Of a DNA stretch of 64,000 bases, positions 13,294 through 15,292 are shown piece by piece (position 1 is the first letter of the stretch; the number at the start of each line of letters is the position of its first letter). The notes beneath the pieces are model-generated. The model saw only the letters and a list, made by a program, of their open reading frames with translations. It was not told the origin of the DNA and did no database searches. The position numbers were made by a program, and so were the translations under genes. This DNA comes from Candidatus Saccharimonadota bacterium (GTDB taxonomy: Bacteria; Patescibacteriota; Saccharimonadia; Saccharimonadales; Saccharimonadaceae), in the NCBI GenBank assembly GCA_017524405.1, contig JAFWSJ010000014.1, forward strand, positions 129,623 to 193,622, given 5' to 3'.

Positions 13294-13378
13294 GCGCGAG
13301 TGGTGAAATTGGTATACACGTATGCCTTAGGAGCATATGCCTTTCGGCGTGCTGGTTCAAGTCCAGTCTCGCGCACCA
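13294..13378 (+). tRNA. tRNA-Leu (anticodon UAG)
   Basis: The acceptor stem GCGCGAG pairs with CTCGCGC, followed by A and an encoded CCA. The anticodon stem-loop TATGC-CTTAGGA-GCATA gives anticodon TAG, reading CUA. A long variable arm (class II, CCTTTCGGCG region) and the T-loop GGTTCAAGTCC are present. It has its own promoter and a terminator 8 nt downstream. Confidence 0.97.
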
Positions 13379-13385
13379 TGAAAAT

Positions 13386-13409
13386 TACAAGCTTATGCTT
13401 GTATTTTTT
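13386..13409 (+). terminator. terminator of tRNA-Leu
   Basis: TACAAGC-ttat-GCTTGTA followed by TTTTTT. The 3' arm overlaps the -35 box of the next promoter. Confidence 0.85.
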
Positions 13410-13426
13410 ATTGGCTGTGTTATACT
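13399..13426 (+). promoter_or_regulatory. promoter of the structured RNA
   Basis: TTGTAT, 16-nt spacer, TATACT on the plus strand; predicted start near 13433. Confidence 0.6.
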
Positions 13427-13432
13427 CTAGCT

Positions 13433-13774
13433 AACCTGGTCTGGCCCCATACAGACCAGCGCTCGTTCCGGCTAGGTCTTCTGATAAACTATCAGAAGAC
13501 AATTGACGTATTTTACTAGTGCGTCCTGTTGACGTCTGTGGGCTCTTTTTAAATAGAGATTTTTATCCTATACCCGAATACCAGATCACCTGGCCCACAC
13601 ATTCCAACACTCGATCCACGTTCGCACAAAGTAATACGTGCAGGCGTGCGTATGGTACACATAGCCAATGTGTAACGCGTATAGCATTGCGTAATTCAGT
13701 CTCTGCTCAGGAGGCCTAGCTATTCAACACCCTTGGTTAACCCTTGGCATGACCATTTGCCGGGGGTTATTTTT
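13433..13774 (+). ncRNA. putative structured non-coding RNA (about 340 nt), class unknown
   Basis: This gene-free stretch has a promoter at its left end, a terminator at its right end and dense pairing between. Stems seen: CTGGTCTG/CAGACCAG (13436-13459), an 11-bp hairpin (13476-13500), TGTGGGC/GCCCACA (13537-13543 with 13593-13599) enclosing two smaller hairpins, and TACACAT/ATGTGTA (13656-13674). A long-range pairing GGCTAGG/CCTAGCT (13470-13476 with 13715-13721) would close the core. No open frame fits. It lacks the conserved blocks of RNase P RNA, tmRNA and SRP RNA, so the class is not assigned. Structure and termination are seen; transcription is inferred. Confidence 0.55.
13739..13774 (+). 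terminator. terminator of the structured RNA
   Basis: AACCCttGGCA / TGCCggGGGTT stem followed by ATTTTT on the plus strand. There is no T-tract on the minus strand. Confidence 0.7.
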
Positions 13775-13886
13775 ATGCCTCTTGGGCTACCCGGGTTTCG
13801 ACGCTTTCGTCAGCCAAAATGCCCCAGTCGACAACCGCCGTCGCTTCGTCTTCTTGCCCACCACCATCTCGTTCGTGGCATTTCAT
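13773..13886 (-). CDS. possible 37-residue acidic protein downstream of the InlB-repeat gene
   Basis: Short frame MKCHERDGGGQEDE... to VAQEA, TAA stop. AAGGAA lies 7 nt before the ATG and overlaps the stop of the InlB-repeat gene, as expected for translational coupling; the gap between the genes is 9 nt. Codon use is like the neighbours. It is strongly acidic and has no membrane helix. Its end abuts the terminator of the opposing RNA. The small size leaves real doubt; no homologue is recalled. Confidence 0.4.
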   Translation of the reverse strand: MKCHERDGGGQEDEATAVVDWGILADESVETRVAQEA

Positions 13887-13895
13887 GGCTATTCC

Positions 13896-15233
13896 TTATT
13901 TAATTTGAACGCTAAATTTAGACCAGACCGCACGAAGTGTAATGTCTTCGCTCGGCATTTCAAAATAGTCTTCATTGATGAATTTAATCTTTGCGTCAGA
14001 ATCAATCTGCCAGCCCTTGAAATTATAGTCATCACAAATCGGCTTATTGGCGCTAATATGAATCGCCTCGCCAGCAAAGTAGCTCTTTTGCGCTGGGCTG
14101 GTATTGTAGTCTTTGCAGCCAGCCGGCAAGTTTGGCTTATAGGTGACCGTATGCTTCTGGCCGCGATTAGCTGGTGCCTGCGTCTCTTCAATCGGGCTAA
14201 GCATATTGAAGCTGCCGACGATTTCGACATCGTGTTCTGGCATAATAAAGCCATCATCGACAATCTCGGCATCGGCCGTCATCCAGCCGCTAAAGCCGTA
14301 GTTTTCCGGAGCATAGTCCTTCGTGAGTTGGTCGAGGCGGAAAAGCGTACCGGCAGCGACGGTCTTCGTTGCTGGAGCATAATAGTTCGCCGGGACATAT
14401 CCGGTAGCTCGATAAGTAACCTTGTAGTATGGAGCTTCTGCATTTTTCACGAAAGTACCGGTTAGAGTCACGTCGTTTGCTGGCATCGTGAAGCTATCCG
14501 AGCCCTCTGGGACTTCGCCGGCAGACCAACCGGAGAATGAATAGCCAGGAACGTATGGATTTGGCGCAACCTCAACAAGGGCGCCTTTAGAATATCTGGT
14601 CTGCTCTGGCAATTCTGGCACACCATACGGAATGTCGCCAGTGAATTCGTAGTTCACCTTGTAGAGCGGAACTACGTCGTTGCCAATGTAGGTATGAGCT
14701 AGATTGGAGCGTGCGCTAGCAATGCCATTTTCAGTCGCTTTGGCTTGGACGTAAAAATCGCGACGCAAGTCTTGGGCCTTGGTCGCTTCGTCTTCGACTT
14801 CCTTAGGTGTACGAACGATGACATCGACAGAGATCTCGCAGCCGGCCTGGAGGCCTTCGACTGCATAGCTAACGGTGCGGATTGTCTCGTCATAATTCAA
14901 GTCAACTACTTTGCCCTTGCACTTATCAGCAATATTCGTTTCGCCAAATTTTTCGAAAGTCATACCGCGCGGGACTTGGTTAGTCACAATAATACGATCA
15001 CTGTAGAGGTTTGCTAGGCGCGTATCGTTCGAGGCGACGCCGCGAACATCAACGCCCTCATAGCTAGTAACGATACTGTAAGAATGGGTGGCGTCGAGGT
15101 CGAGCTCGGAACCATCCTCAATGAGATCAGCAGAGGCATTAATCATGATGCCGCCAGTGAAAGCCGCCACAAAAAGACCGCCTAAGATAGCAATATTATT
15201 CCGATTATTTCGCAATTTTCTTTTGCGTGCCAC
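13896..15233 (-). CDS. surface protein with InlB-type (Listeria-Bacteroides) beta repeats
   Basis: About 445 residues. The N-terminus is a basic cytoplasmic segment (RKRKLRNNRNN), then one membrane span or signal anchor (IAILGGLFVAAFTGGIMINA). Next is a DUF11-like beta domain with conserved Cys. The second half has three copies of the InlB B-repeat pattern (Y-x-F-x-GW ... F-x-MP-x-x-D-V-x-x-x-G-x-F), the last two around 290-355 and 385-445. No LPxTG motif or C-terminal anchor is seen, so attachment is probably by the N-terminal helix. Likely host-contact or surface display (inference; Saccharibacteria live on other bacteria). Start: GTG 15233 with GGAG 6 nt upstream, or GTG 15245. Confidence 0.75.
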   Translation of the reverse strand: MARKRKLRNNRNNIAILGGLFVAAFTGGIMINASADLIEDGSELDLDATHSYSIVTSYEGVDVRGVASNDTRLANLYSDRIIVTNQVPRGMTFEKFGETNIADKCKGKVVDLNYDETIRTVSYAVEGLQAGCEISVDVIVRTPKEVEDEATKAQDLRRDFYVQAKATENGIASARSNLAHTYIGNDVVPLYKVNYEFTGDIPYGVPELPEQTRYSKGALVEVAPNPYVPGYSFSGWSAGEVPEGSDSFTMPANDVTLTGTFVKNAEAPYYKVTYRATGYVPANYYAPATKTVAAGTLFRLDQLTKDYAPENYGFSGWMTADAEIVDDGFIMPEHDVEIVGSFNMLSPIEETQAPANRGQKHTVTYKPNLPAGCKDYNTSPAQKSYFAGEAIHISANKPICDDYNFKGWQIDSDAKIKFINEDYFEMPSEDITLRAVWSKFSVQIK

Positions 15234-15292
15234 ACCTAACTCCACTTTTTCCTAATGTCTATTGTACCAAAAATTAAGCACAAATGCATTAA

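Follow-up and report, generated by a model that had tools for sequence, protein, structure and literature searches.

A candidate orphan structured RNA gene behind tRNA-Leu in a Saccharibacteria genome

Results

A predicted structured RNA gene with its own transcription signals lies behind tRNA-Leu

The window analyzed here, a 64,000-nt stretch of the genome of a Candidatus Saccharimonadota bacterium (G000), carries a tRNA-Leu gene that anchors a conserved gene order, namely trigger factor, FAD oxidase, tRNA-Leu, a variable slot, (SDR), rsmD, (phospholipase-like), recG, trmD and hrcA. The slot extends from tRNA-Leu(TAG) to SDR/rsmD (13379-15292 in the window) and here holds a structured RNA gene, present in single copy in its own genome, and a convergently oriented gene for a surface-type protein [Table 1]. 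The promoter of the RNA, which the initial annotation had located inside the tRNA-Leu terminator, was read directly from the letters and consists of a -35 hexamer TTGTAT (13399-13404) and a -10 hexamer TATACT (13421-13426) separated by 16 nt, all of which are identical in hexamers and spacing in a sister species (G023). A single copy of the extended -10 string TGTTATACT is present in these 64 kb, where 0.16 would be expected; the promoter was not listed by a generic sigma-70 scan. At the other end, a terminator scan listed the stem and T run for the plus strand only, just as had been noted by eye. Transcription is thus predicted, from signals conserved in the two species, to have a sigma-70-type start near 13433 and to stop near 13774. 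The accompanying remark that the region holds no ORF was nearly right, in that the window RNA does contain an open 66-codon GTG frame (13519-13719); nothing equivalent to this frame exists in the sister species, and no ORF is common to the two RNAs.

Table 1 Features of the tRNA-Leu locus and of related slots
Feature	Position	Strand	Basis or remark
tRNA-Leu (anticodon TAG), conserved locus anchor	13294..13378	+	ARAGORN; Rfam RF00005, 57.1 bits
tRNA-Leu terminator (stem 13386-13403 and T run)	13386..13409	+	Overlaps -35 of RNA promoter; kept in G023
RNA promoter, TTGTAT-16 nt-TATACT, extended -10 TGTTATACT	13399..13426	+	Letters; G023 comparison
Structured RNA gene	13433..13774	+	Ends taken from promoter and terminator
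Hairpin H1, loop GCCCCAUA	13436..13459	+	Fold; sequence partly conserved in G023
Long-range stem P0, 5' arm	13470..13484	+	Covariation
Hairpin H2 (proposed in the initial annotation)	13477..13499	+	Mutually exclusive with inner part of P0
Arm P2 (UGUUG..UGUGGGC / GCCCACA..CAACA)	13527..13609	+	Structural alignment
Long-range stem P0, 3' arm	13707..13721	+	15 bp; arm pairing, cross-species swaps
Intrinsic terminator of RNA (stem 13738-13769 and T run)	13738..13774	+	Stem conserved in G023
Convergent surface-type protein, InlB / Listeria-Bacteroides repeats	13896..15245	-	Pfam PF09479, PF18998
TGCACCAATTTT element	L033:541-749, L043:3904-4051, L054:629-724		Letter-changed similar element in L055

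The orthologous RNA was found in the sister species with a query that included the promoter, which matched one of the 44 other genomes of the genus (G023, contig C6, positions 96-155, 76% identical by BLASTN). The first bases of contig C6 already belong to the 3' half of this tRNA-Leu gene, shortly downstream of which another G023 contig, C4, comes to an end. The order that follows is the same as in the window: the tRNA terminator with the nested promoter, a region of ~370 nt, a terminator and the convergent surface-protein orthologue. The FAD oxidases of the two species are 90% identical in protein and the surface proteins 78-79%; the surface-protein orthologue was found only in G023, and in each of the two species the surface gene and the RNA sit together in the slot. 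About 120 nt separate the RNA terminator from the end of the surface gene in the window, versus a few nt in G023. Directly after the end of the surface gene, the window also has a 37-codon frame (MKCHERDGGGQEDEATAVVDWGILADESVETRVAQEA, 13776-13887, minus strand) with a possible ribosome-binding site, which is missing in G023. Elsewhere among the relatives, one genome (G043; contigs C1, C3, C5, C9, C11-C13 and C19) gave twelve matches to the InlB-repeat surface protein, mostly in frames of ~1,400-1,800 codons, an expanded family of such proteins.

Fold of the RNA in the two species

The plus strand of 13433-13774 has a folding energy of -119.2 kcal/mol (z -5.30), which none of 100 shuffles equalled, compared to a z of only -1.88 for the minus strand, and the signal persists when the 5' hairpin and the terminator are left out (z -5.42). 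The G023 orthologue (L063:110-478) is likewise stable (-127.6 kcal/mol, z -7.09), and its plus strand folds better than its minus strand. Since the part enclosed by P0 reaches only z -2.37 when folded alone, much of the fold signal of the window RNA resides in P0 and the adjacent hairpin; small hairpins are present besides H1, P0, P2 and the terminator. The long-range GGCTAGG/CCTAGCT pairing proposed in the initial annotation is real and turns out to be the outer half, at the base, of the 15-bp stem P0 rather than a helix of 7 bp. The hairpin that it placed at 13477-13499 (H2) fared less well, as it does form in the minimum free energy (MFE) fold of the window but rivals the inner part of P0 and is unsupported in G023, where 160/1000 shuffles were as good; it was dropped as a conserved hairpin. 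In the window RNA the form with H2 (-119.2 kcal/mol) and the form with extended P0 (-118.3 kcal/mol) lie less than 1 kcal/mol apart, whereas the G023 RNA prefers P0 by 16 kcal/mol (-127.6 vs -111.2 kcal/mol for the H2 form). P0 was taken as the conserved form because of this strong preference in G023 against a near-tie in the window. The H1 loop is C-rich in the window (GCCCCAUA) and reads CCAUUC in G023, and the topology of the domain inside P0 differs between the MFE folds of the two species. Two near-isoenergetic folds in the window could possibly act as a switch, a notion to which the modeled folds of G023 lend no support.

The sequence has drifted while the closing stem was kept

The interior of the RNA has diverged to about the level of the neutral 4-fold sites of the flanking genes, which are 53% identical between window and G023 in the FAD oxidase and 44% in the surface protein; a description of the RNA as hypervariable was therefore dropped. 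Structural alignment with a purpose-written script that folds and aligns simultaneously, such that the alignment is fitted to the structure, found 86 pairs common to both RNAs; in 33 of these both partners differ between the species, and in 14 only one does. Its score of 161 exceeded those of all 48 controls, in which the sister RNA was rotated or reversed (mean 101, maximum 144). The interior alone also scored above the controls (96 vs a maximum of 82), and the innermost part was less clear-cut, with 1/48 controls as good.

Because that alignment is fitted to structure, swapping of arms between species was the cleaner test. The P0 arms pair well within the window (-25.5 kcal/mol, 0/2000 shuffles as good) and within G023 (-23.2 kcal/mol, 4/2000), versus -11.4 kcal/mol (1221/2000) when the 5' arm is taken from the window and the 3' arm from G023, and -14.4 kcal/mol (111/2000) for the opposite combination. 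For H1, pairing within each species was matched by 0/1000 and 3/1000 shuffles, and pairing across species was weak in one direction (-3.2) and still fair in the other (-9.4). Support for P2 is moderate, cross-species pairing of its arms being mixed. A covariance model built from both sequences (R1) finds the G023 orthologue with an E of 2e-22, itself one of the two sequences from which the model was made. The comparison of sequences thus supports coevolution of P0 between the two species, with the inner branches less well supported. As only two species have a detectable copy, covariation here amounts to one pairwise comparison; the comparison of regions downstream of tRNA-Leu that had been suggested as a check did reveal compensatory change in P0, in G023 only.

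Known RNA families are not found at the locus

Scanning both species against Rfam, at gathering thresholds and at E<=10, returned only tRNA and chance matches, in line with the earlier failure to recognize a known class by eye. One such chance match, to His_leader (RF00514), was rejected, as it reached 16.9 bits (E 4.2) where the gathering score is 49. RNase P RNA (RF00010) has its true copy at G000:C17:15450-15792 (239 bits) and none at 13433-13774; that of tmRNA (RF00023) lies at G000:C17:11677-12044 (80 bits), and ARAGORN finds no tmRNA in the window. Small and large SRP RNA models (RF00169, RF01854) match neither at the locus nor in G000, and the 6S RNA model (RF00013) matches neither at the locus, in the G023 RNA nor anywhere in G000. 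G000 is 99% complete; these absences may stem from the models themselves or from gaps in the assembly, and failure to detect 6S RNA means little, as the model finds 6S in only 6/14 control genomes. That SRP and 6S RNA go undetected in this genome is an observation in its own right, to be read as a gap, diverged RNA or real loss. No match to the ROOL or GOLLD models was found at the locus or in the G023 RNA.

The RNA occupies a variable slot

Flanking gene order is kept in most genomes examined, both in the genus itself and in a second genus of the family. The slot itself varies by species in content and in size (~0.5 to 9 kb); among the genomes examined, the RNA and the surface protein occupy it only in the window's species and in G023. 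The start of the slot in other species is mostly without a comparable fold behind tRNA-Leu; the few that reach z -2.9 to -4.3 (G012, G008, G032 and G042) are either coding sequence or contain another kind of repeat element. An element of direct and inverted TGCACCAATTTT copies around hairpins begins the slot in three further species and has no exact copy in the window. The ends of contigs at this tRNA in several genomes were considered as a mobile-element junction, an idea that was set aside because the two G023 contigs overlap inside the tRNA, making a shared k-mer the simpler explanation.

Searches beyond the slot were equally restrictive. BLASTN of the window RNA against 101 relatives, phages and plasmids returned itself and weak chance matches; the G023 RNA searched against 200 relatives found only G000 beyond short matches of ~25 bases; searching viral contigs with exact patterns of 17 and 20 bases gave six unrelated matches and then none; and a covariance model of the 5' part run on 199 genomes of the family gave other matches at E>=0.03, mostly over open frames and with no motif. 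At this site the RNA is thus an accessory one: either a single lineage acquired it, or the remaining lineages lost or relocated it. It does not have the appearance of a housekeeping RNA, as different DNA occupies the slot in the remaining genus members examined. The initial suggestion that its size suits a housekeeping RNA accordingly finds no support, with RNase P RNA and tmRNA located elsewhere, unrelated DNA in the slot of relatives and no Rfam match.

Discussion

Support is good for the central claim of the initial annotation, that of an unassigned structured RNA possessing a promoter and a terminator of its own, and now includes compensatory change in a second species. Its stability, covariation, promoter and terminator, and the lack of a shared ORF, place it, on two sequences only, among orphan standalone structured non-coding RNAs, and the sequence comparison makes it a credible new orphan RNA whose function is at the level of a proposal. 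It resembles the orphan intergenic RNA candidates described in other bacteria in being folded, in ending at a terminator, in lacking an ORF and in having few representatives and a candidate function only, but differs from them in standing alone rather than upstream of a gene and in being represented by two copies, in Saccharibacteria (PMC8632094). Many of the intergenic regions with such candidates have no homology even between closely related species (PMC8632094).

The most likely reading, which we hold with moderate confidence, is that of a real, standalone, lineage-restricted structured RNA gene, the product of which probably acts in trans as an accessory regulator. Because the surface gene is convergent with the RNA and has the same distribution, the main rival is an antisense or regulatory link between them. 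The mRNA of the surface gene, transcribed from the minus strand, would continue beyond its 3' end into sequence complementary to the RNA and would pair with it, an arrangement suggested by the convergence of the two genes, by their co-occurrence in both species and, so far as could be detected, only there, and by the lack of any listed minus-strand terminator-like site between them. Constraint on the plus-strand fold nevertheless exceeds what simple antisense pairing needs, and the distance between terminator and gene end differs between the species, so we consider this unlikely. More speculative still is that a large, lineage-restricted Saccharibacteria RNA was gained together with the surface protein in the slot and controls that protein or interplay with the host bacterium, possibly through a fold switch; we give this little credence. 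A further possibility is that the region encodes no functional RNA and is a neutrally decaying spacer whose inverted repeats are accidental or a DNA-level feature. Both the rate of sequence divergence, close to that of 4-fold sites, and the very narrow distribution would suit it. The coevolving P0 arms, fold z values under -5 for both RNAs with plus-strand bias, and the conserved promoter and terminator all argue against it and render it improbable.

Likewise doubtful is a diverged housekeeping RNA, most plausibly 6S-like and titrating RNA polymerase, or else an SRP RNA. Size and closing stem would fit, and 6S, small SRP and large SRP RNA all escaped detection in the 99%-complete genome; like 6S RNA, the window RNA is standalone with a closing stem and low sequence conservation. 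It is, on the other hand, longer, carries a separate 5' hairpin and has a branched body, not a rod opened by a central bubble, neither species gives a 6S or SRP family match at E<=10, RNase P RNA and tmRNA are excluded by their true copies elsewhere in the genome, and the other genus members that were examined have unrelated DNA at the site and yielded no homologue elsewhere. Least probable in our view, and very much so, is a small ornate RNA of the ROOL/GOLLD type, borne on mobile DNA by tRNA genes and forming a multimeric RNA particle. Here too there is a likeness, namely a complex folded RNA adjoining a tRNA gene in a variable locus, and ROOL and GOLLD often lie near tRNA islands in phages (PMC12286853). 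Yet the RNA has no Rfam match and is smaller, at ~340 nt compared to over 800 nt for many GOLLD members (PMC12286853); it is not on an evident phage or plasmid, with no phage genes among the neighbours scanned, no match in phage and plasmid collections and nothing related to its short patterns in viral contigs.

For the trans-acting accessory RNA that we favour, RNA polymerase would start near 13433, at the extended -10 promoter that lies within the tRNA-Leu terminator; the transcript would end at the intrinsic terminator near 13774. The RNA would then fold into a 5' hairpin, a multi-branched domain around which P0 joins the 5' and 3' parts, and the terminator hairpin. The closed body would confer stability, and exposed hairpin loops may contact target mRNAs or a protein in trans. 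The RNA is probably a trans-acting regulator or a protein-binding scaffold. The C-rich H1 loop could meet ribosome-binding sites; no consistent base-pairing target emerged, however, when ten neighbouring genes were scanned.

No description of such RNAs in Saccharibacteria was found in a brief literature search. The genomes of these bacteria are small and dense, that of strain TM7x being 94% coding (PMC10768705), and a non-coding gene of 340 nt whose fold is maintained therefore likely pays its way. Such RNAs drift beyond the reach of sequence search within one genus, and only sister species that carry them at the same site reveal them.
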